Below are positions 1-27,062 of a DNA stretch of 30,845 nucleotides, piece by piece (within the stretch, counting starts at the first letter, position 1; every line of letters starts with the position of its first letter). Under the pieces are notes generated by a model. It saw nothing but the letters and a program-made list of their open reading frames with translations. It was not told the DNA's origin and made no database searches. This stretch comes from Saccoglossus kowalevskii (lineage: Eukaryota; Hemichordata; Enteropneusta; Harrimaniidae), in contig NW_003125891.1 in the NCBI RefSeq assembly GCF_000003605.2, positions 76,748 through 107,592 on the forward strand, in the 5' to 3' direction. The translations under genes were made by a program, and so were the position numbers.

Positions 1-106
1 ATCACGACCTACCTCCGAATAAATTACACAAACAGGTTAAACGTTTGTTGCACATTTATTGTTTTCAATCAAATATTATGTTGACACATTATACTGCTAC
101 ACTTGA
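1..106 (-). repeat. 3' end of the left Crypton-type unit
   Basis: This stretch is the reverse complement of about 10378-10475 beyond the stop codon of the right copy. Similarity runs to base 1, where the GTCGTGAT of the right copy's terminal hairpin begins. The window therefore cuts the left unit inside its 3' terminal palindrome, and its continuation lies outside. Confidence 0.7.
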
Positions 107-1793
107 TCAGATATTTCCGGTAATAGTAAACACGTGATTGTTGTAAACAATTCTAGCTTCAGCGTCTTGGGTGTTTAGTTTATGGATTTCAATATCCGCA
201 GGAGATGACGTGTCGGAAAATTCATCAAGGTCGACGTTTACTTGTTTGGAGGTTGTAGCAGCTGCGGTATCATTCAACATATCGCTCACTTTCTTCTCCT
301 GGTTCTGTGTTGTACGTTTATAACTGCAAACACCTGTAGATTAAAAAACAACATTGTCAAGATAATTTAAACTTAATTAAGTTTTTCATGTGATCATGCA
401 TTCATTTAAAATTCTTTGAAAAATCAACAAGTAAAAACGTGCTTTGCTACTTTCTTTAGTTAAGTTAGTTTACAGTGATAGCAATATACTAATAAAGTTC
501 AAGTTTGGTTAGCTTCTACTGAGCAGTGTCCTGTTCGTTGCATTATGAGTTGCTCATCAACACAATGCTCATAAAGACTGGTCGCGTGCGTAGCTGTGGC
601 ATGTAGACTATGGTTTGCTAAGTTTCCAACGATTCCAGCAGATCGGAATAAATCTGGCACTACGAGTTGAATAGAATTGTGACCCATTGGCTGCTTAGTA
701 AACCATATCTTGTCGGATTCTTCGTATTTACGTCGGGGTTACAGGTATAATGCTTTTTTGTTTTCCCTCGGGTAGGCAGAGTGATGTGTACTTCTTGTAC
801 ATTCTAATATGGCATTGTTGGGGGTTTTCAGCATTTGCATAATGCATTGCCTCCTTTCGATGCTTCAGACCACCTTGGTTGCTTTTCGACACGTCTTCCA
901 AATACTTCAAATAAGGCGTTTCACACGGTGACTCGTGTAATGTGATTTGGGGTGGGTCAAAACGTAGAGCTCGATGTTCCATTCCGCTTCTGAAGGCAAA
1001 GTGTTTAATTTAGAAATACCACAGTGCGAACAAGAACCCGGGGAGAATAGTCTCCCAGCAGCTTCATTTTCAACAGTAACGCAGTTTGGTTTTTGGTAAT
1101 TACCTCAGCTTGTTTTGTTTTTGATTCCAACCCCAAACTGGACAATCTTTTCATTTCTGAATCGAGTACTTGACGAAAACCTTGGAATTCTTTATCACTT
1201 AGAACATTTAGAGGCGTTTGCAGCTCAGAACAACGGTAGCTTTGCAAACCCATAATTAAAGATAACAATGTTTTTGAAGGATAACAATTTCCATCCACTT
1301 TGCGCACCTCTAGAAAGAATTTACTTAACCAATAAGCCAAGTCCACGACGGGCATTGCTTTGATAGAGTTGTTAATTCCAGTCGGGTGTTATTTCGTACC
1401 ATCGCCCATTCATTAAAAGTACGCAGAGCTCACATGTTCCGTCGCCTTGTGTTTTAGGCATTGAATCCTTAGCGACGGCCCGTACAGCAGAATCAGATAC
1501 CGGGTCGCAAAACTTTCTACTCTGGATTTCCTGCAATATGATAAAACAAGTTTGCTTTTTTAATACAGGAATTAGACAAACCAGTAAATTGTAGTCATTG
1601 CAGTGATAAAATACTTACTTGTGGAACAGTACCCGGTTCAATATCGACATTTATCAAACCCGAGCTGATTCAAATATTCAGCTGCCTGCGTTGCTTCTAT
1701 TAGGTCATCGTCGTAAACGTCCGATCGAGAAAGTGGGATATGCTTCCATCTCTCCACGATGCACGTCAATGAGAACTGGGGAAAGTTGGCCAT
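107..1793 (-). pseudogene. Crypton-type tyrosine recombinase (DUF3504) pseudogene, left copy
   Basis: Read on the minus strand, three exons can be followed: 1793-1619 (start MANFPQF), 1530 to about 513, and 333-107. The middle exon carries family-typical text: YWLSKFFLEVRK, the QAEVITK stretch, KYLEDVSK, KQPMGHNS, NHSLHATA and DEQLIMQRTGH. The last exon holds the SYKR tyrosine motif and ends in GNI-stop. This order matches the DUF3504/Crypton recombinase family that also gave rise to animal ZMYM and KCTD1-like proteins. The gene is dead: exon 1 has 15 extra bases plus a one-base frameshift, the middle exon has several frame breaks and stops, the HxxR box reads HSLH, and the donor before the tyrosine exon reads CT where GT is expected. 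The right copy (8771-10377) is its inverted twin. Family assignment comes from recognised motifs, not a search. Confidence 0.75.
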
Positions 1794-1918
1794 GTGCGAT
1801 TTTGCATTTATAAGCCTTCGGCGTCGGTCGATATTATAGATATCACCTCAGTAGTCATGCGATATCTCACACATTAAGTTATTAATATTATATTATATTA
1901 TAGACAAGCATTCAAGCT
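1794..1918 (-). repeat. 5' boundary of the left Crypton-type unit
   Basis: On the minus strand the block starts at about 1875 with GTGTGAGATATCGCATGAC, the same words found at about 8377 on the plus strand, and the flanks differ outside it. The left copy contains only one arm of the palindrome seen at 8383-8479. It then passes straight to TATAAATGCAAAATC before the start codon, so about 310 bases present in the right copy are absent here. An AT-rich repeat lies at about 1888-1905. Confidence 0.55.
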
Positions 1919-3440
1919 CAGAGTGACCCACTTGTTTTTCGCCGAACACTAGCCTATGGAGTATTATTTTCTTCTGTCAACCAGACTGTAACGTTGACTC
2001 TCAATCAAAACTAACAGTGTAGTGTGTACACATTTGACGTAGTGTGGGCATGACATTTGTCACAAAGACCATATTCAACGCCACGTATAAAACTATTTAA
2101 GACATATTTATGATCTGTGCCATATTAATTGTAAGTGTCTCCATAGTCTTAAATAGAAATAATATAGTACTCAAAATCCTACAAAACAAAAACAGTGAGA
2201 TATAATGTCCAGAGCAAATGAAATGTATAGTATTTCTTCATTAGAAAAATGTGAAAAATATCGGGGGAACTCGAAACTGTCGCAATAATAATCACTGTCG
2301 CACTAGAAACTGTCCTTATAGCATCAATAGCTGACATTATCAATAATTGTGCACCCTATTTCATATTTCATAGATGGTTTATCATTATTATAAATTATTT
2401 ACTATTTCAATAAGGCTGGTCAATTATTTTTCAAAAACGAATAATGTCATTACTACCTAAAAGAACACATAAAGTCAGATAATTAATGTTATACAGTTTA
2501 ATTCAAGGTATGTCGAATATTAATTTGCAGATTTTGGTTAAAATGGTGTTAGTTTACGGATTTTTTTTCAAAAATCTAACTCACGTTTAGAAATTTTCAA
2601 ACACACGGACTTCATGACAAGAAGTTCAACACTTTAGATTCACAACAAAAGACAACCTAAAGTATTTAGTTCACTTGTCACACACAACACTGTGTACACA
2701 CCACAGTAAAGTTGTTCCTTATGATCATATTTAGAATAAATCTACATGTTGAAAGTATACTAACCACTCAATGAACAAATTCATGCAAGCCAAGAAAAGA
2801 TATATTCAACTTACCCGACGAAGTTTCACGAATGTAATCTTGTGGACCAGACTGAATTCCGGTGTACTTACCCAGACAAGCGACTATGTGAACGACCATA
2901 GAACAACAAAGACATACCCCCTATCGTACTGATAATTTACTATTTACACTATGTTATAGAAAGGTTCACTTCCCAGTAACCCGCCTGTCTCCAAACAATA
3001 GCCTCTATAAATACTGATGCTGACTAAAGCTCTATTGATGATCACATGACTAAGCTTACATAGTCTTGTTCCTCATGGCCGCTAACGTAGACAAAGCTCT
3101 TTTGATTGTTGTGCTCACTTGTGTTGCTTATATTATCAAACTGTATTCAATGATATATAATGCTATATTCGACTGAATAGTGCCAGCGTGGATATTGCAC
3201 CCTGAGGGAGTGAGCACATCAGTGAAAACAGCCACTATATAAATTTGTGTTTTGAAATTCGGGTATATCGTGGATTTGCTGTCATTTTTTTTATTTGGCA
3301 CATATACAATATAGAATACAAATCAATCACAATTCAACTTACAATCAGATCCAAGATTACCAAATGGCCCACTTTTTTTAAAAGTGTAATAGATGATTTA
3401 GGGTAATATGAGTGAGTCTAGATGTCATATCACAAGTATG
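1919..3440 (-). repeat. P450 upstream block, inverted copy
   Basis: On the minus strand this is collinear with 17580-19185 on the plus strand. Shared landmarks are the words around GCGGCCATGAGGAACAAG (near 3075), the GTCTGGGTAAG stretch (near 2870), a GGGTAAGTTGAATAT splice-donor-like site (near 2814), the CAACATGTAGATTTATTCTA box (near 2745), TGTGTACACAGTGTTGTGTGTGAC (near 2690) and the CAGTTTCGAG box (near 2275). Because the same block precedes the intact P450, it is probably an ancestral promoter and first-exon region. Here it leads into the Crypton-type pseudogene instead of a P450. Confidence 0.75.
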
Positions 3441-3998
3441 TTGAATAAATCGGATATCCCTTGACATGCATTTGAAGCTCTACATTCTAAAAGCCACTAC
3501 AATCGCTGTTCCCATGTATAGCATAAGACCTGGTTCTTCTCAAAGCAAGCAACACGAAAAATATAAATATTTGAAATGTGATTATTACACTTTTGCTGTT
3601 TTATACAGTAGGAAATATTTGCCTGAAGTAAAGCTGCTCAAAAAGATGTAAATAAGAAGTTCAAGTACAGATTCCATAGGTAGCCATGTATCAAAAGAAA
3701 ATTTGGAGACAGAAAGAGGACTATCGGTTCTTACTAGGAACCGAAGGCTCTATGATCATCCTTTTTATGGATGTTTGATCTGTGCAAAGACCATTTAATG
3801 GTTTAATAACCATTTTTCTTATCTGGGTTTTGTGAACATCAACATAAAATAAACCTCACGTACACTTAAAAACTAGGATTACACTATAAAATGGTGTGTG
3901 AAATGGCTTATTGTATTACCACCAAATTCGTCCATTCGGAATAAAAGGTCTATTAAACAATTAAAACATATGTAGAAATTACTTAATACAACAAATGT
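3441..3998. repeat. Duplicated non-coding segment, then unassigned sequence
   Basis: About 3441-3650 is the inverted counterpart of about 15530-15742. Both contain a shared stretch running from the AAGGGATAT region through a conserved CTACATTCT and GCCACTRCAATCG. A reading frame starting MHLK can be followed in both, but the frames diverge and break, so it is treated as non-coding. From 3660 to 3998 no gene, RNA or element was recognised. Confidence 0.5.
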
Positions 3999-4042
3999 AT
4001 GTAGTCACAGCCTATGATCCGCATTGTTTATTGACTAAACTT
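3999..4042 (+). pseudogene. Remnant of the 3' end of the unknown membrane-protein gene
   Basis: Only the last codons survive. The plus strand reads SHSL-stop, matching the SHSL-stop of the terminal exon at 27063-27278 (16 of about 17 bases agree around AGTCACAGYCTATGAT). The following bases to 4042 match 14393-14421 in inverse orientation. It sits downstream of the dead minus-strand P450 and faces it, the same arrangement as at the intact locus. Confidence 0.45.
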
Positions 4043-4090
4043 AAGCTGATAAGTTGATGTCATTTACTATTGCTACACAATTCAGTAGGG

Positions 4091-4298
4091 CTGTAAAAGG
4101 GTTAATTATTCACTGGGTTTTAATCTTGCTTATTTCGCTGACTGGAAAATGCGCTAAATTAAAACCCAGTGAATATGTACAATTTAGCATAGAACACATT
4201 TACCTAAATGATAAAACCGTAAATTTAAGACCCACTGAATATGCTTGAAATGGTAAATCAGTGAAATTTAAACCCAGTGAAAATTAATCATTTTACAG
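4091..4298. mobile_element. 208-bp MITE-like foldback element
   Basis: The ends are imperfect terminal inverted repeats of about 34 bases, at 4091-4124 and 4264-4298. Both begin CTGTAAAA and share TTAATT, then CACTGGGTTT. Inside, two more copies of the ACCCASTGAATATG motif occur in direct order, so the element is made largely of one motif repeated in both orientations. It has no coding capacity. It has no visible counterpart at the matching place in the right arm (after about 13090), which supports insertion. No clear target-site duplication was found. Confidence 0.6.
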
Positions 4299-4499
4299 TA
4301 TATTGATATGGATGCAAGCATCATGTGACTTCTGATCATGCAGGTACAATATAATCTTTCTGATGCACAATCAAATGGTTTCTTCAGGAAACACAAATCA
4401 CACAAAAAAATACTTTTACCCTCCCCCACCATGATATATTATGTATTGTTTTTCATTAATTTAAATATTAATATTTTGTATTTAAGACTGTCGCTATTT
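4299..4499 (-). repeat. P450 3'-flank segment shared with the right arm
   Basis: On the minus strand this matches about 12700-13090: the words AATAGYGACAG, AATACAAAATATTAAT, TTTCCTGAAGAAA and CCTGCATGATCAGAA occur in the same order and spacing. It marks the 3' boundary of the LINE inserted at 4500-7190. No coding sequence is seen. Confidence 0.65.
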
Positions 4500-7190
4500 T
4501 TTACCTGACTTCTAGGTATTTAATTATATTTTCCCATTTGTTAACAAATATTTCGTGTTTGTTATATTATTCTGTGATTGATTTTTCTAGGTTAAAGGGT
4601 TGTTTTACTCTTTCAATGAATAAGTTTAAGTTTGGTTAAGAATTATTAAATCTCGCAATATATAATTCGTATTTCCCAAGTAGAATTAAGTGCTTCCACA
4701 GGGCTTGAAAGTTACTTTTGCCACCAAAATTAAAGATTACCTCTATTATAACGTCTGTTATACTGAAACCCGCGCATTTTTTCGTTGATTGTTATCTGTT
4801 TAATTTGTTTCCAGTTTTCCTGCCATTCAACATCATCTGTATATTGTTTACTAGCAAACGTGCTTAATGCAGTGGCCTTTTCAAATTTTGAATTTGATAA
4901 AACATTGTAGTAGTCATTACATTTGAATTTGCTATATTGCTTATAGTTTTCTCAAATAGGTCTCGTCTCCTTTGGCGACATACGCCGTTTTAATGCAGGT
5001 TTAAATTCTGTAGGAATTGCGGACGTTAAACCATAACATATAATAAAATCTTACTTGATATTGAATTTAGTCTGGAACTGATTGAATGACAAAACCTCCC
5101 CATTCTTATCAGTCAAATCACTTACGTACTTCACCCCGTGGTCAAACCAATTGCGGTAAAATATCGATTTTCCATCAATAAGTACGTAATTATTGTTCCA
5201 TATTATATGCATCCCTGACTTATGTTCGGCAATCTTTTGTGATTTTTGCAACTCTGACCAGTGACTAAGAATTTCACGGTAAAAAATAGGTATCTTGACT
5301 GAGAGCGAGTCAATCGAATAATTACAATTCATAAGCAAGGCCAACCCTCCCAATTTATTAAAATAATGGTCTGGAAAATTAGGCCATGATGACTGTAATT
5401 CTAATATTCTGTTTATCCACGTTAATTCGAATGCTTTATTCATTAGTTCAAGATCTAAACAGTTAACGCCACCTTGAGAAAAGTGCCCAAGCATGGTATT
5501 GTTCTTAATATGTTGTTTTTTTTCTATTCCACAGAAAATTAAATAGATATGCGCCTGCTTCCTTAATATCATTAACTGGTACGGGTATACTATTCATAAT
5601 GTAAATTAACTGTGAGGCTCCAAAGCATTTGCCCAGTAATGCTTTGCCTTGTAGGATTAAATCCCTTGATTTCCATATCTGAAGTTTATCTTTCATTTTT
5701 TTAATTTTTGTCCAAAAATTTAAGTTTTTCATTTTCGTATTTATCGTGACCTACATACACTCCAAGTACGCCAACGGGACCCAAAGACGGCGATAAGCCC
5801 CGTGGAAGCACCCATCCCCCATTCTGATCGCATACTAGAATTAGTTCTGTCTTCTCTAAATTTAAAGTCAAACCGGACTGATTACTAAAATCAGATAAGA
5901 TGTTTAGGGAAATCTGAATGGATGAGCTGTCTTTAAGTATGAATGTCGTATCGTCTGCATAAGCAGATATTTTTCGCTAGTATCCAGAGGGTAATGTAAT
6001 ACCCCTAATACGTTCATTATTTCTAATATGAATTAAAAGTAGTTCTATCGAAACAACAAATAGAGCAGTGGACAACCTCAAACCACCCAGTACTGGCACC
6101 TTTGTTCAAAACGCAACATTGAATGTTTGTATAGAATGTTTGTACCCATTTTATTAATGAAGCCCGAAATTAAATGCGTCTAAGGCTTTATACATAAATG
6201 ACCATTCCAATGAATTGAATGCTTTAGTATAGTGTAGAAATAATAGTGCACCTTGGTTACCAGTTTCTTCGCACCATTCGATAATGTCACAAATTAGACA
6301 AATATTATCTGTAATACGTCTGCCTTTTTTAAAGGCTGACTGATCTTAATGGATAATAATAGGTAATACTTTCTTTAGTCTTGCTGCTATACAGCGGCTT
6401 GCAAGCTTATAATCTATATTTAGTAGGGAGATTGGTCTCCAGTTATGTATATGAAGTGGGTCTTTTTCAGGCTTTGGCAATAAAGTAATCACTGCTTGTC
6501 TTTGTGTTGCAGAGAGAGAGAGAGAGAGAGACATTGTTGTAAGTATAATTTATGCACGCAAGAAGACAATCACTGATATTTTTCCAAAATCGCAAATAGA
6601 ATTCGGGCGGAATTCCATCACAGCCGGGGGTTTTATTCGTAGGACTACTCTTAAGAGCTTCAAATAACTCGTCTTTAGTAATTTCTCCTTCGCAGATATT
6701 TGATTGCTCATGATTGAGCCTTGGAATATGAGCAGTTTCAAGGAAGCTATAACTATTCTCATTAATTTCCAAATTTCGTTTGGAATATAAATTCTCGTAA
6801 AATCTTGCAAGGTGTACAATGTTTCTTACCAATACCAATTTACCCGTGACCGAATAATAGACCCCTGTATTTGTTGCGCAATCAACTTTTCCAGTTCATT
6901 TTTCACTTGCTCATATTGCAGCAAAATGCTTTAATCAAGGGTTTCATCAATACGCTCTTCGAGTTGTTGTAATTTTTTATTTAAGTTGTTCTCGTTGTTA
7001 CGCAGATTCCTTTGCTTGTTTTTACTATAGATAATGGTTTTCTCTCTGATTTTGAATTTTAAATATTCGAATGTTTGTTGAGCATTGTAACTCAAAATGT
7101 GACACTCTCTGTACTGAGCATCAATTTGCGCGTTATAAATTTCACCGTTTAAAAGGCTATTATTAAACTTCCAAAATCCGGGGCAATCCG
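4500..7190 (-). mobile_element. 5'-truncated L1/Tx1-like LINE, inactive
   Basis: The minus strand encodes a broken ORF2. From its 5' side it shows a GFWKFNNSLL stretch and a charged coiled-coil-like linker (about 7170-6960), PGCDGIPPEFY (about 6630), LPKPEKDPLHIHNWRPISLL (about 6470-6420), RRITDNI (about 6315), FLHYTKAFN (about 6230), YADD (about 5955), and the C-terminal region to a stop near 4503. The endonuclease domain is absent. Frameshifts and stops interrupt the frame, the first catalytic Asp of the RT (normally FxD) is His at about 6232-6234, and an (AG)n tract breaks the frame at 6511. The matching segment of the right arm lacks the whole element, so both edges are defined by comparison. 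A short A-run follows the stop codon at the 3' end. Confidence 0.85.
6511..6531. repeat. (AG)n microsatellite inside the LINE reverse transcriptase
   Basis: Ten AG units lie inside the RT coding region, between the CINYTYNN stretch and the QRQAVITLL stretch. They cause or accompany the frame change between those two segments. Such a tract is expected to vary in length between individuals. Confidence 0.9.
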
Positions 7191-7344
7191 TGGTTCAGAC
7201 TAGGCTAGCTCTGCTATCTTCTGTTCCCCTTTACTCATCTTTCTTTATGTTCCTCGTATATTCAAATACGTGGAGCATTATTCATTATGGGTAAATAAAT
7301 AATTATTATAAAGTAGAGATACACACCTATCTGCTAATAACGAT
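7191..7344 (-). repeat. P450 3'-flank segment shared with the right arm
   Basis: On the minus strand this matches about 12525-12690 over some 160 bases, beginning GTTATTAGCAGAT and ending TCTGAACCAYGG. It abuts the dead P450 directly, whereas at the right copy about 600 bases of 3' UTR-like sequence lie between. A deletion therefore removed the 3' UTR here. The LINE starts where the similarity stops. Confidence 0.7.
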
Positions 7345-7938
7345 AAATGGTTTTGGGTAATAAATGTCAAGCCGAGATTGCCCTCGCGGGAAGGTTTTTC
7401 AACTCCTGGCAATCAAAAAATACTTCATACGACCAAGTACTAAAAATATATGGATCTTCAAACATCTTCTCATTATAGTCAATTGCCCAATGATTTGGTA
7501 TAATTATGGTGTTTGTGGGAATATCATGGCCCCCAGCCGAGGTTTCACGAGCAGTGCAATGAAACACACTCGGGGGCAAAGGGCTGTGCATGCGTAAAGC
7601 TTGGTAAATAGCTGCTTCAACATACGGCAGGTTTTGCCGGTCACTGTAGACTGGGAGTCAGTCACGACCAATAATCTCATCCAGTTCTTGATGGATCTTT
7701 GATCCATTTATACCATATACCAACAGAGAGTTTGTGTAAACAGGCGTACAATACAATGTAACTTACCATAACATTTACTTAATTTGGTTAATGATAAATG
7801 TGGACTTGACCCAACTTCCAGGATATTACCAATCAATGGCCAGCCCTTTGGCCTATTTGGTAATAGTGATTGAGACGACTTTTTCCACAGTAACCCAATA
7901 CAGATTATTACCATAGCTGTCAGTGTAAAAGTGATCAT
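7345..7938 (-). pseudogene. Cytochrome P450 pseudogene 1 (exon 1 joined to part of exon 5)
   Basis: Exon 1 (7938-7767) is complete: start codon, membrane anchor, [11 protein letters not shown] and an intact GTAAGT donor, and it is very similar to exon 1 of the intact gene. Only about 65 bases of intron follow. At about 7700 the sequence then enters the middle of the last exon at the KIHQELDE region. That part continues through [17 protein letters not shown] and FEDPY. It then jumps over the PxRF region and the whole heme-binding Cys loop, to fragments of GRMKYFLI and GVEKPSREG, before ending near 7345. Exons 2-4 are missing. A one-base shift lies near the PVYSD counterpart. Without a heme-ligand cysteine it cannot make an active P450. 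A good splice acceptor (TTTTACAG, ending at 7959) lies 20 bases before the start codon. Confidence 0.9.
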
Positions 7939-8382
7939 GGCTGTGATCTGCAGATGATCTGTAAAATAGAAATGAATTCATTACAATTAAGTATCGATCA
8001 GTATTTAACAATTTAAATTGGATTAGTTGGTGTTTTCAATCAAGGTTCGTGGGCACTTGGAAGTGATTTTTTTGTGCTTTTTCTTACCCAGACAGTCTTG
8101 GCTAGATAGATGCATTTCGGAGCATTTTCAATGCTGGAACATACTGAAAAATCGATTTTAAACTATTGGGAACTGAGGCACGCGTATTTAATTGACATTC
8201 CTGAAAGTTTGTTTACATTGCTTTTTGACTGACAAGTCACTGTTGATGTTATATGCAAATGAGTTACTGGTCTCAGTTACGGTGTGAAATAGTGTATCAA
8301 ATAGTGCGGAAAGTCGTTTCAGGATTGAAGTCAATCCATTAACTTGTACATGGTCAAATCGGTAAGTAAAAGATATGTGTGA
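7939..8382 (-). other. Upstream region of P450 pseudogene 1
   Basis: Near the pseudogene this resembles the region just before the start codon of the intact gene (about 19950-19983). On the minus strand about 8075-8110 carries a GTCTGGGTAAG word also found in the other upstream blocks, perhaps all that is left of the promoter. The rest has no recognised feature. The inversion junction between the minus-strand P450 unit and the plus-strand Crypton-type unit must lie here. Confidence 0.35.
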
Positions 8383-8479
8383 GATATCGCATGACTACCG
8401 AGACAGTATCCATAATATCGATCGACGCCGAAAGCTGAGGTCGATATTATGGATATCGTCGAGGTAGGAATGCGATACC
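8383..8479. repeat. Long imperfect palindrome at the 5' edge of the right Crypton-type unit
   Basis: Arms 8383-8421 and about 8441-8479 pair at 32 of 39 positions, including an unbroken 15-bp block around ATCCATAATATCGA. The loop is GC-richer than its surroundings. The left Crypton-type copy carries only one arm. Similar words (CGAGAC and ATAATATCG) recur near 10555-10577 at the 3' side of the unit, so these may be the structured ends of a transposable unit. Confidence 0.75.
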
Positions 8480-8770
8480 AAACATACACAACGAGAGGAT
8501 GTCCCTCTGTTATAGAGAAATAACCCTTAGAACCTAATAGAACCGTTCAAAACCTTTTGTAATGAAGCAAGTGGGCGATATCAGCACTGAGTTTTAAAAT
8601 GGTATAGTCCCCTATTGATACACAGATTTTGTGGAATTCGTCATTCTCACCTGGATGCATATTAGTTTTATACAACCAATCAAGCCACGGACATTTGGTA
8701 TTCACATATTGAAGTTGTTTGATTGGCCACATAATATCGGCTGAATGTGCGTATAAATGCAAAATCACAC
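8480..8770. other. Segment present only in the right Crypton-type copy
   Basis: About 290 bases between the palindrome and the recombinase start codon have no counterpart in the left copy, where the palindrome arm is followed directly by TATAAATGCAAAATC. An open frame on the minus strand crosses it, but it runs into the antisense of the recombinase exon and is taken as a shadow. No family was recognised. Confidence 0.35.
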
Positions 8771-10377
8771 ATGGCCAACTTTCCCCAGTTCTCATTGACG
8801 TGCATCGTGGAGAGATGGAAGCATATCCTACTTTCCGACGATGACCTAATAGAAGCAACGCAGGCGGCTGAATATTTGAATCAGCTCGGGTTTGATAATG
8901 TCGATATTGAACCGGGTACTGTTCCACAAGTAAGTATTTTCTCACTTCAATGACTACAATTTACTGGTTAATCATATTCTTGTATTAAAAAAAAAGCAAA
9001 CTTGACTTTACATGCAACTTGTTTTATCATATTGCAGGGAACCCAGAGTGAACGGTTTTGCGAACCAGTGTCGGATTCTGCTGTACGGGCCGTCACTAAG
9101 AATTCAATACCAAAAAACACAAGGCGACATGTGGGCTCTGTGTACTTTTAATGAATGGGCGATGGTACGACTGGAATTAACGACTGATGGAAATTTATGA
9201 CTGTATCGAAGTAATGCCCGTTATTTGGTTAAGTAAATTCGTTCTAGACGTGCGCAAAGTGGATGGAAATTGTTATCCTCCAAAAACATTGTTATCTTTG
9301 ATCATGGGTTTGCAAAGCTACCGTTGTTCTGAGCTGCAAATGCCTCTAAATGTTCTAAATGATAAAGAATTCCAGGGTTTTCGTCAAGTGCTCGATTCAG
9401 AAATGAAAAGATTGTCCAGTTCGGGTTGGGATCAAAAACAAAACAAGCTGAGGTAATTACTAAAAACTAAACCCCGTTACTGTAGAAAATGAAGCTGCTA
9501 TGAGACTATTCGCCCCGGGTTCTTGTTCGCACTATGGTATTTCTACACGTTGCCATCATTAGCAGAATGGAACATCGAGCTTCTACATTTTGACCCACCC
9601 AAATCACTTTACAGGAGTGACCAGGTGAAACGGCTTATTTGAGTAAGACCAAAGGCGGTAATGCATTATGCAAATGCTGAAAACCCCCCAACAATGCCAT
9701 ACAAGAAGTACACATCACTCTGCCCACCCGAGGTTAAACAAAGCATTCTACCTGAAACCCCGACGCAAATACGAAGAATTTGACAAGATATGGTTTACTA
9801 AGCAGCCGATGGGTCACAATTATATTCAACTCGTGGTGCCAGATTTATTCCGATCTGCTGGAATCGTTGGAAGCTTTACAAACCATAGTCTACATGCTAC
9901 AGCTACGCACGCGACCAGTCTTTGAGCATATGGTGTTGATGAGCAATTCATAATGGAACGAACAGGACACCGCTGAGTAGAAGCTAACCAAACTTGAACT
10001 TTATTAGTATATTGCTATCACTGTAAACTAACTTAACGAAAGAAAGTAGCAAAGCACGTTTTTACTGGTTGATTGAATTTTAAATGAACGCATGATCACA
10101 TGAAAAACTTAATTAAATTTAAATTATCTTGACAATGTTTTTTTAATCAACAGGTGTTCGCAGTTATAAATGCATAACACAGAACCAGAAGTAAGTAAGC
10201 GATATTTTGAATGGTACCGAAGCTGCTACAACCTCCAAGCAAGTAAATGTCGACCTTGATGAATTTTCCGACACGTCATCTCCTGCGGATATTGAAATCC
10301 ATAAACTAAACACCCAAGAAGCTGGTGCTAGAATTGTTTACAACAATCACGTGTTTACTATTACCGGAAATATCTGA
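8771..10377 (+). pseudogene. Crypton-type tyrosine recombinase (DUF3504) pseudogene, right copy
   Basis: Three exons are visible. Exon 1 (8771-8929) is intact: 53 codons, MANFPQ to GTVPQ, followed by GTAAGT. Exon 2 runs from 9038 to about 9983 after a TTGCAG acceptor and begins GTQSERFCEPVSDSAVRAV, then IPKNTRR, FNEWAMVR, WLSKFVLDVRK and SDKxEFxGFR-type text, KQPMGHN, NHSLHATA and ERTGH. Exon 3 (10154-10377) holds the SYK tyrosine region and ends in GNI-stop. Frameshifts and stops scatter through exon 2 and a stop interrupts exon 3. HxxR reads HSLH, and the expected donor at 9984 reads CT, both exactly as in the left copy. It is a dead recombinase or a dead domesticated derivative. The spliced structure is unlike most short DNA elements but is found in animal members of this family. 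Confidence 0.75.
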
Positions 10378-10464
10378 TCAATTATAGCAGTATAATGTGT
10401 CAACATAATATTTGATTGAAAACAATGAAGGTTTAACCTGTTTGTGTAATTTATTCGGAGGTAG

Positions 10465-10632
10465 GTTGTGATATCATCCCTCGGCTTCGCCACGGGATGT
10501 TATCACGACCGTACCATCGGAGTGTCATTTCGAGGCATGATATAGGAAATGACACGAGACGAAGGTCTATAATATCGCCAACTCCCTTCAAATATCGCTT
10601 GAGTTGGAGGTTGTTATTCAAAAAACAACCTC
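10465..10632. repeat. Three successive hairpins at the 3' end of the right Crypton-type unit
   Basis: Hairpin 1 has arms 10465-10480 and 10494-10509 (14 of 16 pairs, with GTGATATCATCCC as the core). Hairpin 2 has arms 10522-10531 and 10546-10555 (GTGTCATTTC, perfect over 10). Hairpin 3 has arms 10607-10615 and 10624-10632 (GAGGTTGTT, perfect over 9). The left copy ends at window base 1 inside the counterpart of hairpin 1. Dense palindromes here and at 8383-8479 bracket the recombinase pseudogene. Confidence 0.7.
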
Positions 10633-10705
10633 AAAGTCTATTCTTATTTTGCGTATGAGGTGTGTATATTCATTGAAAAGAATTATTACCATTCTCTATT
10701 GGCAG

Positions 10706-11908
10706 GATCACTTTCAAGGAAGGCAGGAATTCTTTTCGATATCCAACATTCTCTCACTGTAACGGCGTTCAATGTTCTGTGTATATGAAAATTGGACTGA
10801 CGTTTACAGAAAAATGGCAGTGTGTTTACTTGCTACGAGTGTTGTTGGTAATGTATCAATAAATGTTTGATTTATGTATTTGTTACTATTATGTAACGTG
10901 GACTGTGTCGCGTCATTGATTCAGTAACATTTAAATAAACATTGAGTTCCATAACACAAACACAGCCTATTATACTTGGTGCAGATTATGTTCCATGGGT
11001 GAAGGTATTCATGCAGTCGAAACTTCAGTATATGAAGGATGTATCTGACAGGCGTTACCGATTTCTGGAGTCCGAACTTGAACACCATTGCTACAATTGA
11101 CAGAGAAAAACCCCATGACATTATTGATATGACTTTGATTGAAAGAGAAGATTCAGACATGAAAGCTGATGACATGTACAGCAATGCACATATAATACAA
11201 TCACTGATAGATTTACTTTCTGCAGGTAAGGTGTAAAATCTAGTGTCGATGAATGTTTCATAATCATGCCATAAACAGTTCATTGGATTAACTTCCATCT
11301 TAAAACAATTTTTCTTCCTATTTGACAAAGATGTGTATTGTTACAATCCTTAATAAGTACACACAAAATGACACATACGTCCAATATTAATACGTGACTG
11401 TCTGTTCCCAGTCTCGTCAGATTTATTGGCAAACACTCGTATTGTGTTCATTATTGTGCACATAAAATAATGAAAAAAAGAATTCAGATAAAACTGACTG
11501 TAATAATTTGTTGACTTCATAGGTGTTGAAACTATCATATCGGCATCTAAATGGTGGTTAATAGAATTGATTCACCACCCAGATATCCAAACAAAAATCC
11601 ATCAAGAACTGGACGAAGTTATTCCTGCAAACACCATAATTATGTCAAACCATTGGGCAATTGATCATGATGAGAAGGTCTTTGAAAATCCATATAGTTT
11701 TAATCCTTAACGATTCATAGACCCCAAAACTGGTTTATTAGTTTCATATAACAATATAAAATTTGCACCTTTTAGTATGGTTCGTCGTATTTGCTTAGGA
11801 GAAGTATTTGGTCGTATGAAGTATTTTTTGATTGCTTCCAATATTCTTCATCAGTTTGAGTCATATCACCCCAAACCATTTAAAATCATGGTAAAAAAAA
11901 GAAAGTGA
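10706..11908 (+). pseudogene. Cytochrome P450 pseudogene 2 (exons 3-5)
   Basis: Similarity to the intact gene starts at about 10655, inside intron 2. Exon 3 (10706-10847) has lost 41 bases and one further base. Exon 4 (10966-11225) carries a 10-base insertion after CCTATTATA and a 2-base deletion. Exon 5 (11523-11908) has two in-frame deletions (150 and 54 bases); the first removes the K-helix ExxR and the second the region before the C-terminal HPKPF. The PQRF glutamine codon has become a TAA stop, and the first Gly of the heme loop is Val. Intron 4 has exactly the same length as in the intact gene (297 bases) and is nearly identical. Exons 1-2 are absent, and the Crypton-type unit stands in their place. 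Confidence 0.92.
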
Positions 11909-12520
11909 GAAGTGAAGTATAATTTTTTTATAATTAACATATTACTTTACATTAAATCAACTTTTGTCATGAATTTAAAAGGACAGTGAATTAATTGCCT
12001 TTAGTTAATAAATATACCAGTATAGAATTCTAAATTTATCAGTGTTTACCTTCAATGATGCTCTCCACCATTTACAGAAACTCATTGGTATGAATAGAGA
12101 CAATAAATACACTTACTGGTCCTAAATTCTTTCCGTAATATCTAGAAAGGCGGCGTAAATAGATCATGATTGGGAGGAAATGAACAATATCGTAGTTAAT
12201 AGAAAATTTGGAACCTTTGCTTCCTGCGCTGCATGAATCTCGAAGCAGTAAACCAATTTTGCTGTTAGTATTAATACATTAACTACTCCCATGCCTAATA
12301 AAACTAACAATAGGTCACAATGTACACCAGATTTTTAAAATTACACATCAGGTTTTACTCCGTCGTGAGACAGGTTAGTTTTACTCTACTGATGCGCATC
12401 ATCTATGTATATATGTACACATACATACTGTCCTCTTTATAAAGACACTGCTATATTAAAGTCGAGCATTAATTAATTAGCTGTGTTAAGTGCATTTTTG
12501 ATTTCCCTGGCCCATCGTTT
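11909..12520 (+). other. 3' UTR-like flank of P450 pseudogene 2
   Basis: This corresponds to 24339-24795 after the intact gene: CATATTACTTTACATTA, CAGAAACTCATTG, ATATCTAGAAA and CTGTCCTCTTTATAAAG occur in the same order. Similarity is clearly lower than across the exons and intron 4. The AATAAA of the intact gene is replaced by ATTAAA near 12457. Confidence 0.6.
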
Positions 12521-13090
12521 ATGTTACCCGGTTCGTTATTAGCAGATGGGTACGTATCTCTACTTTATAATAAATATTTATTTACCCATAATAAATAATG
12601 CTCAAAGTATTTGAATATACAAGGAACATAAAGAAAAATGGGTCACAGAAGATAGCAGGGCGAGCCTCTTCTGAACCATGGAAAAAGTACTTGTGTAAGA
12701 AATAGTGACAGACTTGAATACAAAATATTAATTTTTAAATTATATCATATCAACTATGACCTTCAAGAAGAAGTAACAAATGTTGAAAGTGAATACAAAC
12801 AACATAACATTCATATCTAGTGTAAGTGAAATATGTTAAATGTCATTCTATATTAAGACTGATAGTCATGAAGCATTTCAGTAATGATTTGTTAAAATAT
12901 TAATTGGGGATGGGATACAATGAGCTTGTGGGCAAATATAAGACTTGCATAATGATCCCAGACGACATCGATTTCAAATGCAAACCCCTTGTTTCCTGAA
13001 GAAATCATTTGAGTATGCAACAAAACGATAATATGGCAGGATCTCTTTGAAACCCAAGACATCACGTTCACCTGCATGATCAGAACTGTG
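12521..13090 (+). repeat. P450 3'-flank segment, empty site of the left-arm LINE
   Basis: 12525-12690 matches 7191-7344 inverted, and about 12700-13090 matches 4299-4500 inverted. In the left arm the L1/Tx1-like LINE sits between the two parts. Here they are separated by only about 16 bases around AAAAGTACTTGTG, so this is the unoccupied form of the locus. Confidence 0.7.
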
Positions 13091-14390
13091 TTTACACTTG
13101 GAGGTTTAGTATAGTGAGCACATTGTGAGGCTTTTGTTTGTAAACCAATTAAGAAGGTCTCTCATGACAAAAGGGCACATCCCAAAAAGAACCACTGCTG
13201 GTTCACGACTTTACAACATACCGTCTATGCATTAATTGCATAATTTTGGATGCTTACATGCAACAAAAGCCCTCAAGAGTAGTGTCACAATACTGAATGT
13301 CATCTACCTTGACAGAAACAATGTTGACAACATCAGTGAACCAGCCAAAATCGGAACCAGATTGTTCTCAGAAATTGCTCATACCCAGAATTTGAAGATC
13401 AGTAAGGTAGGCAAACCAGAATTGGCAAAGAGGTAGAGGTAGAAAACGCGGACGACATGTATTGATACATTACAGTTCGTTAGAGGCAGATGTTCAAAGT
13501 ACTCATTTTAGTACTTACTGTCTATCATCTAATTGTTGGGGACCTCCACAAATCTACTTATATTACATAGATGAGGCAAAGTAACTTGAATGGTTTAACA
13601 TGTATAAACACACGTAGGTGTTAATAGGAAATCACAATATTTTTATATTTGTCACACATCATACACAAACAAGTTATTGACCACATTGGTTGGAGAAAAA
13701 TTGAAATGTAAAAGATAAAACAAGCAGCCTAATATACATGCTGTATGTTATCTAAGAGTCTATTCATTGACGTCCATCAAATGTATCTAAACGTGTCAAA
13801 TAATTTGGGCACTTGTTTAAATATAGTTCCGACGAAAATATATAAGCTACTTTGTATAGGAAATATTATTTCAAATTACTGACTATACGAATCTATTAAA
13901 TGACAAGACTAGCTTTGCGATAACATGATTTTCAGATACAAGCACCTTGTTCTACGCCCTCAGTCACGATCATACCTCATTTGCTGGACCAATACATTGT
14001 ATATTTTTGCATATTATCGATACAATTTTTTTTAATTGCCCATTGCTTTGTCGGAGCGTGACATAGACTAATGCACACAAGTCCTATGATGTATTCTTCT
14101 TGACCTCAACTATCATTAACAAAAGTGTATCTTTGTGTGCCCATTTTCTGAAGTGAAGCCAAATTGGCCAGTTTTCTTCGGTGGAGTATCGGAATTTGCA
14201 ACCGACCAAACTAACAAACGCAGATAAAATATTGAAAATCACAATTTCAAGTGATGAGTGACGTTACCCCGGGACACTAGTTGGTGTTTTAGTTGCGCTA
14301 CTGTGGCAATATAGTTGACACCACATAACACGGATTTCATCAACTAAGGGACAGTATGGGCGAGTATGGGTTATAATAAAAAAATTATAA
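13091..14390. other. No recognised gene
   Basis: This 1.3 kb has no counterpart in the left arm, where about 50 bases lie between the matching points apart from the foldback element. It may therefore be an insertion in the right arm. An open frame at 13236-13436 (66 residues, mixed charge) matches no family I know and has no support from the duplicate. No terminal repeats were seen. Confidence 0.3.
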
Positions 14391-14392
14391 TA

Positions 14393-14560
14393 AGTTTAGT
14401 CAATAAACAATGCGGATCATCTTCTATTTGAAGCAAGATGTCTGTAGTCCATTCAAGTGGAACCGCATAACGGAGGACTGTTCGTAGGATATATCAGGAG
14501 ACTAGGATAATTTGGACGATTCAGGTGTTTTGGATTACGGGCATAGAATTTCTGTATTGT
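14393..14560 (-). pseudogene. Degenerate terminal exon of the unknown membrane-protein gene
   Basis: On the minus strand the text around YILRTVLRYAVPLEW and DILLQIED aligns with YLSIVCCLVMQLLLDG and YILLQKKDE of the better preserved exon at 27063-27278. About 40 of 52 bases agree across the best part (14415-14470). Stops interrupt the frame, and the final SHSL-stop segment is deleted. It lies downstream of P450 pseudogene 2 and faces it. Confidence 0.5.
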
Positions 14561-15529
14561 AAAACAGACAGTTTCATTGGTACTATTTTATTTTGCTACT
14601 TTGTTCAGGAAGTTGGACACAATTTTATGAGTTGACTTTTCACTTTACCTAATGTTTGGCTGACTTTGATGTTCAAACGACTAATAAAATACTTGAATTG
14701 TGGTGAGCAGAATAGTACCTGCAGCTGGGACTCGGCTTTCTGTGTTTGGAAAAAGGAGATAGTGAATCGAAATAGTACATCGATATGATCCGGATAACAC
14801 CAACGCACAATTTAGAGATGTTCATTTTTTTTTGAAAAACTTTAAGAGGTAAAAAATAAGTTAAAGTCACTTAATATATATATTACTCTTACACTGTTTG
14901 TCAGTAAATGAATACTTAAAAATACACAAGAACAAAGTGTAGGTAACAGTTTGTTGAAGAGCTGGTGTGCAGTTATCATGGCTGTCTTCAAAGTTGAAAA
15001 TGTTTTATTTTGAATTGGTTACTCTGCCATGACTTCAGAATGTAGAAAGTAGTTAAGGTAGCAAAGCTGCATTTTTTTCATTATCAAACTCAGTTTTAAT
15101 TTTGTAGACCTTATGTATTCGTGAATGCACACATACACACAGTTGTATTAAATAATGTCTACACATATTTGTTGTGGTTTAATAAACCTCTCACTCTGTG
15201 GGTCACTGTTTAATAGACGCTCTTACAAAAGAAAATTGAGATTACGTAGGATATGCAAATTACTTATCAACTGACAGGAGAATTGTTTCTAAGTGGATTT
15301 GTACTAATTAATAGTAAATTAATTATATAGTGAATTAAATTAAATTACTGTTTAGATGTTTTCTTCTCATGTATTTATGCAATTGCTGTACCCAAACCCA
15401 AGTAAAGTGCATGTCTCCAGTAACGTGTGCCACCTTATTTTCTCACTTTTCGGATTCTTTCGCTTCTTTTACTTGTTATGGTGCCCTGGATTATGTTTTT
15501 CAGGCTGCTGTGTCTGATGGTGTGGCTGG
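14561..15529. other. No recognised gene
   Basis: Short open frames occur on both strands without splice-site or family support. No RNA gene or clear repeat was seen apart from AT-rich runs near 14870 and 15310-15350. Confidence 0.3.
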
Positions 15530-15741
15530 AGTATTTCTTATCTGCTTGATCATCATTGGTGTGGTTTTCTTGTTACCAAACCTCCTTCCATGCCACATCT
15601 GCCAATGTTTACATTTCAGAAGCTTATAACTCCTTTGTTGCTTACACTGTGGAGAACTTATTGCTATGACAACAACGATTGCAGTGGCTCTGAGAATGTA
15701 GGGCTTCAAGTGCATTTTCAAGGGATATTAGATTTATTGAA
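15530..15741. repeat. Duplicated non-coding segment, right-arm copy
   Basis: This is the inverted counterpart of about 3441-3650. The match ends at the LINE tail (15742), and the left arm continues uninterrupted into what is here found again at about 17580. That identifies the LINE insertion point. Confidence 0.6.
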
Positions 15742-17575
15742 CATTTATTTATTTTATTTATTTCACCAGAATGACCATATTTACAGAATTTAAAAAGTAC
15801 AATAGTAATAATTCTGGTGTGGACCATGTCCAGTCTATGGCCCAGACTGCCAAGTAGAAATTGACAAAGCACTGGTAAAGGAAAGGAACGGAAAGGAACA
15901 TTACTATTTACATAACGAAAAGTAATCTATAAGATTTAGGTATAAACATGAAGAAAATATAATAATATAAACTACTGGTACTACCAATTTTTAAGCAGAA
16001 GAAAAGAAAATAATGCAGAGAAGTGGGAAGTAATCAAGAAATTTAACAAGGCAAATAATGTTTCATTTCGTATTTAAATTTGTTTCTGTTGATAATTTTG
16101 AGTCTGGAAGTGAATTCCAGTGTTTTACTGCAGCAAATTTAAAATTATGTTGTGAAACTGTATGTCGAGTAACAGGAATTGACAAGTTACCGCTAGACAC
16201 TGACATTGTGGGATAGCAATGTGCAAAATCATTTACATACTTATTGAGGCTGTGTGCATATCTGTTGTGTTTGAGGTCGAAGATAAATAGACAGGTTTGT
16301 AATTTACAAAGTTTGTGAATATCAAGTATGCGTAATTGAATAAAAAGAGGAGCGGAATATGCTTTAAAGTGCGAGAAGGTGATAAGACGCACAACCTTTT
16401 TTGTAAGAGCAGAACTGGTTTGGGTTTGTGTTTCCCCAGATTTCAATACAGTACATTAAATGTGGGGGAATGAATGCATTGTAAAATAGGATGAGAATTG
16501 ATCTGGGAACATAGTGACGACTGCGAGATATAATGTCCAATTTGGGACTAATGGTTTTCACAATTTTGGCAATATGAGATTTCCAATTTAGGCATGAGTC
16601 AAAGGCTACTCCCAGATAGGTGGCTTTAGACATGACCTCTATCAACATATCATTGATTGCGATTGCGAGCTGTCCCTCTACATTTACTTTTCTTTGAGGG
16701 GTTTTCAGGATCAAATAGTTTGTTTTTTCTATATTAATTTTTAATTTATTAACATTGCACCACTGTACAACATTTCCAAAACCATTGTTAATATTAGAAA
16801 ATTCAATAGTTAGTTTGCAAGAATTTAAATAAATTTGTATCATCCGTAAAGAAGCGGAAATTGAAAGCATCAGTGGAGTGGTTAATATCATTTATGTAGA
16901 GAAGAAAAAGTAAAGGCCCTAATATTTATCCCTGGAGCACCCCGTATTGAATCTGTCTGCATGTGGATGCTGTTCCGTCAATGTTTACTGTTTGGTGGAT
17001 ATTAGTTAGGTAGCTTCGGAACCACGAAAGCGGGAGACCCCTTATCCCACAATAAGCCAAATGTTCGAGGAGAATATTGTGATCAATATTATCGAATGCC
17101 TTTTTTAAGTCAATGAATACCCCAAATGTAACAAAACCGTTGTCCATGTTGGCAGTGATATCAGAAACAAGGTCAACTAGGACAAGGCCAGTACTGTATT
17201 TTTTCCAAAAAACATATTGTGAGGGCAAGAGGATGTTGAACTTTTTTTGGAAACCAAGAAGCTGATCATTTACAGCTGATTCAAAAATTTTACTGAATAC
17301 GGACAAAATAGATATGGGACTATACTTGCCTACATCCAGGGCAGGCCCCTTTTTATATACTGGTGCAATATCGCAACTTCCTGTCGAAACTTTATCGGGA
17401 GCACCCCATGATTTAAGTATTTGAGGGGTGGTCATATTATTGCATTTATTGAAAATACTGTTAATTGTTATCCAAATCTTACTCCTATTTGCGGAAATAA
17501 ATTTATATTTAAAAAAACGTTTTTTGCCAATTTTAACAATTTTGTATCATAATGATATAATTTTTTTTAAATATG
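15742..17575 (-). mobile_element. 5'-truncated CR1/jockey-like LINE, inactive
   Basis: The minus strand encodes most of a reverse transcriptase plus its C-terminal domain. In order: YSPISILSVFSKIFE (near 17310), SQYVFWKKYSTG, FIDLKKAFDNIDH (near 17110), WFRSYLT, YGVLQG (near 16935), ILGPLLFLLYINDI, FTDD (near 16845; usually YADD), KLKINIEKTNYLIL, YLGVAFDSCLNWKSHI, then TRHTVSQHNFKFAAVKHWNSLPD near the 3' end. Frameshifts separate the three main open segments, at about 16900 and 16400. The 3' tail is a (TAAA)-type run, seen on the plus strand as ATTTATTTATTTTATTTATT at about 15745. No endonuclease domain remains. The left arm has the empty site at about 3430. The short word CATTTA occurs at both edges and could be a target-site duplication, but it is too short to be sure. 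Confidence 0.85.
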
Positions 17576-17579
17576 CATT

Positions 17580-19185
17580 TACATCCTGACTTACTCATAT
17601 TATCCTGAATGATCTTTTACATTAGAGAAAAGTGTCCGCCAGTTGGCAATCTTAGATCTGACAGCAAAATACCAAATTATATACTAGCTGTTTCCACTGA
17701 TGTGCACACTCCCTCGAGTTGCAATATTTAAGCTGGCATAGTAAGGTCGAAGGTAGCAATTTCATGTCTTGAGACAGTTTGACTTGGGAGTTTGATAATA
17801 TAATCAAGATAATCAAAAGAGCTTTGTCTAGGTTAACGGCCATGAGGAACAAGATTATGTGAGCTGGTCTTTATAGATACTTGGAGGTTTATAGACAAAC
17901 AGGTAGGTAACTAGAAACAAGTACACTTGTCTATAATATTGTGTGAACAGTAAATTATCAGTGCGATAGGGGGTATGTCTTTGTAGTTTGGTCATTCACC
18001 TAAATCGCTTGTCTGGGTAAGGAGACCGAAAATTTGTCTTGTCCATATAAGACATTATATTCGTCATCGTGCATACGTCGGGGTAAGCTAAATATTTTTA
18101 TTGCTTGACTTATATGAATTTGTTAATTGTGACTTTGTTTAATGAGTGGTTATTGTACTTTCAAGCAACATGTAGATTTATTCTAAATATAATCACAAGG
18201 AACACCTGTACAGTGGTGTGTACACAGTGTTGTGTGTGACGAGAAAACTACATATTTTAGGTTGTCTTGGGCTGACAATCAGAAAGTGCTGAAGTCCTTG
18301 TTATGAAGCCTGTGTGTTAGTTAGATTTTCGAAAGAAATCGTAAAAGGTTCTAGAACTTGCACCATTTTCACCAAAAACTGCTTTTTTTTTATCAAATTA
18401 ATTTTCGACATACCATGAATTAAACTGTATTAAATTAATTCATAGGCTTTATGTAAAAATTTACCAGCCATATTGAAATATTAAATAAATTGGTGAAACT
18501 GATAAAACCATCTGGTATAATTCTTGATCTATTATACCCATTATATAATATTTGTAATCCCACTTGTAACCAATTAGCTGCAAACATGATCCAAAGTGAA
18601 CGTATTTGCATGAAATATGGTGGTCAGCTATTGATAATGTCAGCTGCTAGTGATATTAGAACAGTTTCTAGTGTGACAGTGATTATTATTGAGACAGTTT
18701 CGAGTGCCCCCAGATATTTTTCCACATTCTTCTAATGCAGAAATACTATACATTTTATTTGCTTTAGAAATTATATCTCACTGTTTTTGTTGTGTATGAT
18801 TTTGGGAACTACATTATTTCTATTGTAGACTATGGTGACACTTACAATTCATATGGCATAGATCATAAATATTTCTTAAATTGTTTTACACATGACGTTG
18901 AATATGGTATTTGCTGTTAACGAATGCCAACAATAACAAGTTGTGATCCGTTAATAGAAGTCCCCCAAAGTGACCTACATAGTATACGTCAGAGCAATAA
19001 AAATATTCGCTAAAAATATAGAATTCAAGATTTTGCTACACAATAGACATATTCGATAGTGGCTCCCCCTATTATCAAAACAATATAAAGGCTGTTAGTT
19101 TAGATTGAGAGTTAACGTTAATAATTAATAATTAATAATTTTATACTCTAGAGCTAGTGTTCGGTGACAAACATGTCGGTCACTC
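17580..19185 (+). repeat. P450 upstream block, right-arm copy
   Basis: Collinear with 3440-1919 on the minus strand. It carries a CATATAAG TATA-like word near 18045 and a GGGTAAGC donor-like site at 18083, followed by the CAACATGTAGATTTATTCTA box, the TGTACACAGTGTTGTG box and the CAGTTTCGAG box. The part from 17930 to 18250 is repeated at 19210-19490. An open frame at 18490-18735 is not preserved in the left-arm copy and is not called. The block probably holds an old or alternative promoter of the P450 unit. Confidence 0.7.
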
Positions 19186-19209
19186 GGAACTTGAATTCCT
19201 GTCTGTAAT

Positions 19210-19490
19210 ATAAATACGTGTGAATAGTAAATTACCAGTACTTTGTTTGATCATTCACCCAAATCACTTAACTGGGTCAGTAAATTGAAAATCTGTCTGG
19301 TCTATATGCAAATATTGTATTGTGTTGTTTAGTGTGTAGACATCATAGGGGTAAGTTGAATATTTCTATTGATCGAATTAATATGAACTTGAATGTGTTT
19401 ATTGAATCATTACCATACTTTTTGTCATGTAGATTTATTCTACATATATTCACAACAAATACTGCGTCGTGTCTAGAAAATTAAATACTT
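19210..19490 (+). promoter_or_regulatory. Second tandem copy of the first-exon block; candidate P450 promoter
   Basis: This repeats 17930-18250: GTGAAYAGTAAATTA, GATCATTCACCCAAATC, CTGGGT, a TATATGCAAATATT stretch, then GGGGTAAGTTGAATAT with a good donor at 19351, and the CATGTAGATTTATTCTA box. ATGCAAAT at 19306-19313 is a perfect octamer word overlapping a weak TATA-like sequence. The same donor is kept in all three copies of the block (2814 minus, 18083, 19351), so a non-coding first exon ending at 19350 and splicing to an acceptor just before the ATG (CTGCAG at 19969-19974) is a reasonable inference. No transcript evidence is available here. Confidence 0.45.
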
Positions 19491-24338: not shown

Positions 24339-24795
24339 GATGAGTGAAGTATAAAAATAATTTTCATAATTAACATATTACTTTACATTATATAAGTTTT
24401 CAATAATGTTCTATACAATTTACAGAAACTCATTGTGAAAGTGATTACGTTCTGTGATATCTAGAAACTCGAAATTTATCATGATTGAAGGAAATCTCAA
24501 GGATGATATTCGTTACGCAATAGTAAACTTCTTTTTTTAATGGGAACAGGTTTGATGCTCTTGATCTTTTGCAATAATAACATCTGGTTTACTGTGATTA
24601 AGAAGCAGTAAAAATAATTTAGATTCATATATCGCATATAGTTTTATTAGGCTACGAGAATATCACTCACTGTAGGTTATAATCTACACCAGATTTTGTA
24701 AATTACTTGCACTACACTATGTCATCTATATGTATATATCTGTCCTCTTTATAAAGAGACACTGCTTTTATAATAAAGTCAATCATTATTTGCTA
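24339..24795 (+). terminator. P450 3' UTR with polyadenylation signal
   Basis: AATAAA occurs at 24772-24777, about 435 bases after the stop codon. It is the first such signal downstream, and a T/G-richer stretch (TTGAGCGTGTTTTTT) follows near 24812. The sequence just before it (CTGTCCTCTTTATAAAG) is conserved after pseudogene 2. Confidence 0.6.
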
Positions 24796-25229
24796 ACTGA
24801 AGTATAACTGTTGAGCGTGTTTTTTATTTCCAAAAGACCATTTTTAAAGACCAAACGATGAGTGTTAGAAAATATCGATCATCAGTGTAAGGCCTGCTTA
24901 TTGCTATTAAGACTGGCACCCACAGAACTCACACTAAACAGGGGGTTCTTTCACTGCTAGAATAGGGTAGACAAGATAATAGTACTGGAAATGAAATACA
25001 CATACACCAAGTTAAAGCTTTGATACCTCTCACAATATTTACAAGAAACAAAGCAGAGACAAATACAATGAATAAATTCACTAAAATAGGGGATTGCCTA
25101 AAGAAGTGTGCATGGGTGATTACTCACAGTTCCAGGATGTGGAGGTTGATGACAATCAATGGCTTTTGCAACACAACGACGAGGAAATACAGGAGACTTG
25201 ATTGCAGAGGAACGCTGTTATTCTGGTTG
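24796..25229. other. Intergenic, no recognised gene
   Basis: An open frame at 25020-25238 on the plus strand has no known relatives. If the minus-strand promoter at 25230-25330 is real, it would be antisense to a first exon. That exon could end at a GTGAGT donor near 25130. Confidence 0.3.
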
Positions 25230-25330
25230 AAATGGTAGACCACAACTGTCCTCAGTCTAGCCTATTTATAGGCATAAATTGCCCAGATTCAGGCACACCA
25301 TCTGGGTTTCCACATGAGCCAATCAGAATG
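25230..25330 (-). promoter_or_regulatory. Possible minus-strand RNA polymerase II promoter
   Basis: On the minus strand a CCAAT box in reverse (CTGATTGGCTC, 25316-25326) is followed about 50 bases later by GCCTATAAATAGG (25259-25271), a strong TATA word. A start site near 25235 would fit. The transcript would meet a GTGAGT donor near 25130 without an ATG first, so a non-coding first exon is possible. No downstream coding exon was found on this strand before the P450. Confidence 0.35.
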
Positions 25331-25370
25331 TGGACTTGCTAGCAGCTGTCTCGCGTAGGCAAGTCAGAAG

Positions 25371-25890: not shown

Positions 25891-25899
25891 GTTGAAAAC

Positions 25900-27040: not shown

Positions 27041-27062
27041 TTTATTTAGTAAAAATTTATAA

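Follow-up and report, generated by a model that had tools for sequence, protein, structure and literature searches.

The window, by which we mean the whole 30,845 bp stretch of Saccoglossus kowalevskii contig NW_003125891.1 that was analysed, contains three homologous units, each made up of a cytochrome P450 gene or its remains together with downstream flanking DNA. Unit A lies on the minus strand and units B and C on the plus strand; the P450 copies of A and B are pseudogenes, and that of C is apparently intact. Two elements that we call Crypton-type stand on either side of unit A in opposed orientation, and each of the arms formed by A and B carries its own retroelement insertion. The features are as follows, in window coordinates with the strand in brackets; the values given for domains are E-values.

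1..1874 (-): Crypton-type copy 1, frames broken, cut by the left edge of the window (QRICH1 1e-10; DUF3504 4e-11)
1893..7701 (-): unit A arm, comprising the terminal part of P450 pseudogene A with its 3' flank (12 collinear blocks against 11592-19213 on the plus strand)
4505..7186 (-): retroelement insertion in arm A, probably non-LTR (RVT_1 1.1e-07 at 5701-5976, minus strand; 2682 bp against 12 bp)
7345..7987 (-): P450 pseudogene A (blocks matching copy C; p450 3.9e-16 at 7367-7657, minus strand)
8375..10659 (+): Crypton-type copy 2 (QRICH1 2.3e-09; DUF3504 8.8e-06, below the cut-off)
10660..11908 (+): P450 pseudogene B (over 10660-11990, 1197 of 1292 sites agree with C)
11909..19213 (+): 3' flank of unit B, partner of arm A (the same chain of blocks)
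15745..17580 (-): retroelement insertion in arm B, probably non-LTR (RVT_1 8.3e-11 at 16926-17546, minus strand; 1836 bp against 12 bp)
19166..19462 (+): repeat, about 300 bp long, of 17894-18205, upstream of gene C (218 of 280 sites)
19984..24338 (+): P450 gene C, apparently intact, 490 aa, stop included in the coordinates, five exons by splice prediction (19984-20155, 21901-22176, 22914-23096, 23200-23451 and 23749-24338)
24399..27164 (+): sparse remnants of the unit 3' flank downstream of gene C (four short blocks that run collinear with 12051-14471)

All four predicted introns of gene C begin with GT and end with AG, and no internal stop interrupts the translation. P450 enzymes carry a heme loop of the form FxxGxxxCxG; it is found in the gene C translation, the last exon of which matches the Pfam p450 family (PF00067) at 1.2e-63, and by these features the product is a cytochrome P450. 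Its closest relatives in the PDB are CYP17A1 (6b82, 7.5e-81) and CYP1B1 (6oyu, 4.6e-75), and all 18 distinct PDB sequences that match at E<=1e-60 are CYP17, CYP1, CYP2 or CYP21 proteins, so that the best PDB matches, which extend over nearly its whole length, identify gene C as a putative P450 of the CYP1/CYP17/CYP2 type. A single scan of the last P450 exon against viral contigs found no relative. The other two copies are decayed in different ways. In pseudogene A the middle exons are gone, exon 1 abuts the last exon almost directly, and the last exon, when aligned to C, has deletions of 101 bp and 38 bp and a 2-bp insertion. Pseudogene B is missing its 5' half and contains small frame-breaking deletions as well as deletions of 36, 150 and 54 bp; it has a stop at 11708-11710, where gene C reads CAA, and its heme loop (FSMVRRICLG) has lost the glycine to a substitution.

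The four blocks downstream of gene C match the B flank at E-values from 2e-5 to 6e-8, and the control comparison of the same region with the reversed B flank returned nothing better than 0.059. Because the blocks are collinear with the B flank, C is part of a third copy of the unit, whose flank appears more decayed than the others, or replaced. The initial annotation, made from the letters of this DNA, had described a duplicated P450 unit; the A/B pair is indeed there, but the third, apparently intact copy with its flank traces had been overlooked. A 65-bp tandem array (8.1 copies, 97% matches) occupies 25372-25900, downstream of gene C.

The inverted relationship of A and B was assessed by BLASTN of the whole window against its own reverse complement (E<=0.01), which yielded 25 inverted rows. 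Twelve of these pair 7701-1893 on the minus strand with 11592-19213 on the plus strand and keep collinear order, with blocks starting (A, minus / B, plus) at 7701/11592, 7532/11611, 7441/11803, 7343/12533, 4504/12695, 4393/12990, 4043/14391, 4003/15134, 3586/15604, 3425/17581, 3254/17665 and 2017/19092. At the P450 end, adjacent blocks share 13 bp on the B side and 7 bp on the A side. One further row between the arms (3007-2719/19149-19455) falls off the chain because of a local direct repeat (17894-18205/19166-19462). Of the remaining 12 rows, 4 are self-palindromes, 4 join arm A to the third P450 (C), 2 belong to the Crypton pair, 1 is a local pair, and 1 (11269/8353) is weak and falls into none of these classes. 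Twenty order-3 Markov shuffles produced 5 matches in total, the highest at 45.4 bits, compared with 683 bits for the largest chain block; several short chain blocks score between 36.8 and 46.8 bits, within the shuffle range, and are believed because of their position in the chain. Under random ordering, 12 blocks would fall into one order with a chance of 1 in 12! (2e-9).

Arm A measures 5809 bp and arm B 7622 bp, and most of either is without alignment. Over the 12 blocks, gaps excluded, 1641 of 1931 aligned sites are identical (85.0%), and the gene-end blocks (140/163) are as alike as the others (1501/1768; Fisher p 0.82), as expected from one duplicated unit. These results confirm the large collinear inverted repeat that had been proposed, and with it a single ancestral unit, made of the P450 end and the DNA downstream of it, present in both orientations. 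Among the nine landmark pairs on which that proposal had been built, five fall within a chain block and two (7700/11590 and 7340/12525) lie no more than 10 bp from a block edge; the last two (4290/13080 and 3640/15560) miss their blocks by some 45-60 bp but keep nearly the same diagonal. Segmental duplications are usually defined by a length of at least 1 kb and an identity of at least 90%. The largest A/B block is longer than 1 kb, yet identity across all 12 blocks stands at the 85.0% given above, and the arm A/B duplication appears, by this measure, older than the usual threshold.

One separate retroelement has inserted into each arm. Gaps in the chain had been predicted at 4500-7190 and 15742-17575, and were measured at 4505-7186 (2682 bp, opposite 12 bp in arm B) and at 15745-17580 (1836 bp, opposite 12 bp in arm A); each carries a different reverse-transcriptase frame, bearing out the earlier view that the arms were broken differently. 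Both insertions are likely, though not proven, to be of the non-LTR type. Matches of their frames to group II reverse transcriptases are weak, at 0.019 and, for arm A, 0.0012, far below the cut-off; against solved structures in the PDB, frame 16926-17546 has no match and frame 5701-5976 a single weak one (0.0052). A 6-bp CATTTA repeat occurs in the flanks of the arm B insertion, which carries a tail of simple repeats on its 15.75 kb side, and no repeat of 6 bp or more was found in the flanks of the arm A insertion. Annotation of frame 16364-16891 as an isomerase was rejected, the match (0.017) being far below the cut-off and meaningless.

The initial annotation had also placed the remnant of a second gene in the shared flank. 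This candidate was dropped: none of the 17 frames of 60 or more residues in the non-retroelement flanks of A and B has a Pfam match (E<=0.05), mismatches in the largest A/B block follow no clear codon periodicity, and 27 of its 35 gaps have lengths that are not divisible by 3. Two stretches of arm B, 13035-14390 (1356 bp) and 14421-15133 (713 bp), are without an arm A counterpart, and Pfam gives no match for the 4 frames of 60 or more residues that fall within or span them. A search of the whole window with Rfam at gathering scores gave no RNA features. A segment of about 300 bp is present twice in unit B, and the start of its second copy is also present in A (2719-3007/17894-18205/19166-19462), where the homology stops near 1893, beside a Crypton-type element.

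It had further been suggested that inverted repeats of this size could drive instability and copy-number change. For the present state of the arms this is unsupported, as is a role for them as a current recombination hot spot: the longest exact run common to A and B is 30 bp, and the largest block is evenly diverged, with no conversion tract detected in it (471, 466 and 454 of 1000 shuffles were as low in windows of 150, 300 and 500). The arms therefore look like a poor recombination substrate now. What is presented here is sequence evidence, and it shows neither a phenotype nor a change in copy number.

The Crypton-type copies are mutually inverted (1837-1/8731-10472 and 1874-1813/8375-8436) and 92.9% alike (1587/1709 sites), and the longest exact run they share is 71 bp. 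Crypton recombinases have a catalytic tetrad R-H-R-Y with an HxxR motif; at the place expected for HxxR both copies read HSLHAT, as judged by eye in broken frames. Copy 1 additionally matches Phage_integrase at 1.4e-4, below the Pfam cut-off. The Crypton label is thus a putative one, given on domain content, namely the DUF3504-type domain; Cryptons are known in animals, and host genes derived from them also carry DUF3504 (PMC3212892). About 300 bp of copy 2 (8437-8730) have no counterpart in copy 1. Homology between the two can be followed as far as 10472, the point at which copy 1 is cut off by the window edge, and we infer that the right end of copy 2 lies before 10660. The intervening stretch, 10473-10659, may be the other end of that copy; between the Crypton homology and P450 B it holds a palindrome (10590-10649) and, by eye, a further hairpin. 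A 107-bp imperfect palindrome (8378-8484) marks the inner end of copy 2, and both arms of this palindrome match the end of copy 1 (at about 1813-1874).

At the left edge of unit A, homology of arm A to B ends at 1893 and homology between the elements ends at 1874, 19 bp apart. The elements are significantly more alike than the arms (1587/1709 and 1641/1931; Fisher 4e-14), suggesting that they were inserted after A and B had split, probably so, although element identity is a rough clock, one that gives the age of the source that the copies have in common. No significant high-identity tract was detected in the pair (72, 519 and 265 of 1000 shuffles were as low in windows of 150, 300 and 500). 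The inverted orientation of unit A had been recognised from the outset; the opposed Crypton-type pair that flanks it, and the alternative route to that orientation which it offers, had been missed.

If the segment from about 1.9 to 8.4 kb is reversed on the map, the order becomes element, A, A-flank, element, B, B-flank, C, which is a head-to-tail array. In this flipped map the end of the A-flank precedes B across an element, just as the end of the B-flank precedes C, and B and C are head to tail already. We tentatively favour, with a probability of about 0.45, an element-mediated flip of one tandem unit, together with the array history that goes with it. Three P450 units, each a gene with its 3' flank, would have arisen head to tail in what is now an old array; Crypton-type elements would have inserted on either side of unit A in opposed orientation; and recombination between them would have flipped the segment, leaving A reversed so as to mimic an inverted duplication. 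Unit B would have lost its 5' half next to one of the elements, and the direct copies B and C would have undergone gene conversion in the gene body. That the Crypton pair itself flipped the P450 unit, through recombination within the elements or through their tyrosine recombinase, and that this would make it a case of Crypton-mediated gene inversion in an animal, is a conjecture we hold with a little more reserve. Inversions mediated by recombination between retrotransposons are on record, 49 of them between human and chimpanzee (PMC2603318). No direct mark of a flip was found within the window, beyond the edge of which lies the outer end of copy 1, and the DNA upstream of A (7960-8731), compared with the region upstream of C, matched at the edge of exon 1 alone.

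We rank this flip slightly above its chief competitor, a true inverted (head-to-head) duplication at birth followed by independent retroelement and Crypton insertions and partial deletion of the centre. Such an origin is a serious possibility in its own right: it accounts for the collinear chain, for gene-end and other blocks that are equally alike, and for the even divergence of the largest block, which a single duplication predicts, and it does so with no later inversion step. It must, on the other hand, treat the opposed elements at both edges of A as coincidence, and it fits poorly with B and C being direct copies in the same array; both of these objections are arguments from plausibility. 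The search for the missing 5' half of B bears on the two readings alike. Comparison of C 20170-22870 with the window gave weak rows alone (E 0.013 to 0.094), so an extra deletion is needed under either model.

We consider it unlikely that the arrangement is an assembly artefact, produced by a false reversal of A at the two similar elements or by a false joining of copies from uncollapsed haplotypes. A similar inverted pair is a place where an assembler may flip a segment, but the element copies contain no exact run longer than 71 bp, so reads should be placeable, and 15% divergence between the arms along with different insertions would go far beyond ordinary haplotype difference. Least credible is the idea that the blocks common to the flanks stem from dispersed transposons and not from a single duplicated unit. 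One piece is in fact repeated locally (17894-18205/19166-19462/3007-2719), yet the twelve blocks stand in a single order that chance would rarely produce, gene-end and flank blocks are equally alike, and just 12 bp lie opposite each retroelement insertion.

Taken as a whole, the window holds a P450 array that is old and decayed and belongs to a known kind; it records mostly ordinary gene-family decay. Tandem clusters of P450 genes with birth-and-death evolution are familiar among CYP1/CYP17/CYP2-like relatives, and the present locus resembles them in its several copies, one apparently intact and others decayed, in the direct arrangement of B and C, and in its signs of exchange; it differs in having one inverted unit, with opposed Crypton-type elements on its two sides. 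What is new is this opposed pair, which could explain the orientation of unit A. An inverted repeat in one window may accordingly stem from a flipped tandem unit and not from inverted duplication. As in the retrotransposon recombination-mediated inversions of Lee et al. 2008 (PMC2603318), opposed element copies bound an inverted segment, although the elements here are Crypton-type and the event is a deduced one. The elements share recombinase relatives of the DUF3504 type with the animal CryptonA elements described in PMC3212892, and are unlike them in that both copies are frame-broken, one is cut by the window, and there are two copies in this window. Among the literature titles searched, none concerned a P450 array inverted between Cryptons, and we make no claim that none exists.

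Units B and C have not diverged equally in all their parts. The gene bodies (B 10660-11965 and C 22864-24400) are far closer than their flanks: identity is 92.6% in the gene body (1197/1292) and 82.9% in the four flank blocks (184/222; Fisher 1.5e-5), the latter a figure from BLAST-selected blocks, so that true flank identity is probably below 82.9%. This fits gene conversion of the gene body between B and C, the direct copies; alternatively, B and C may be younger partial copies of the gene body and not converted ones. If exchange did occur, it would be the direct copies, and not the inverted ones, that take an active part here, and an intact P450 could receive defects from a pseudogene. Within the gene, 388 sites around the intron before the last exon have 14 mismatches, against 81 in the other 904 sites (p 4.5e-4), for a region chosen post hoc, after the alignment had been viewed; in a scan free of such choice, 14 of 2000 shuffles of the B/C gene gave an equally low 300-site mismatch minimum. 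The three copies have 116 last-exon sites in common; 94 of these are identical throughout, 13 are shared by B and C only, 5 by A and C only, and 4 by A and B only.
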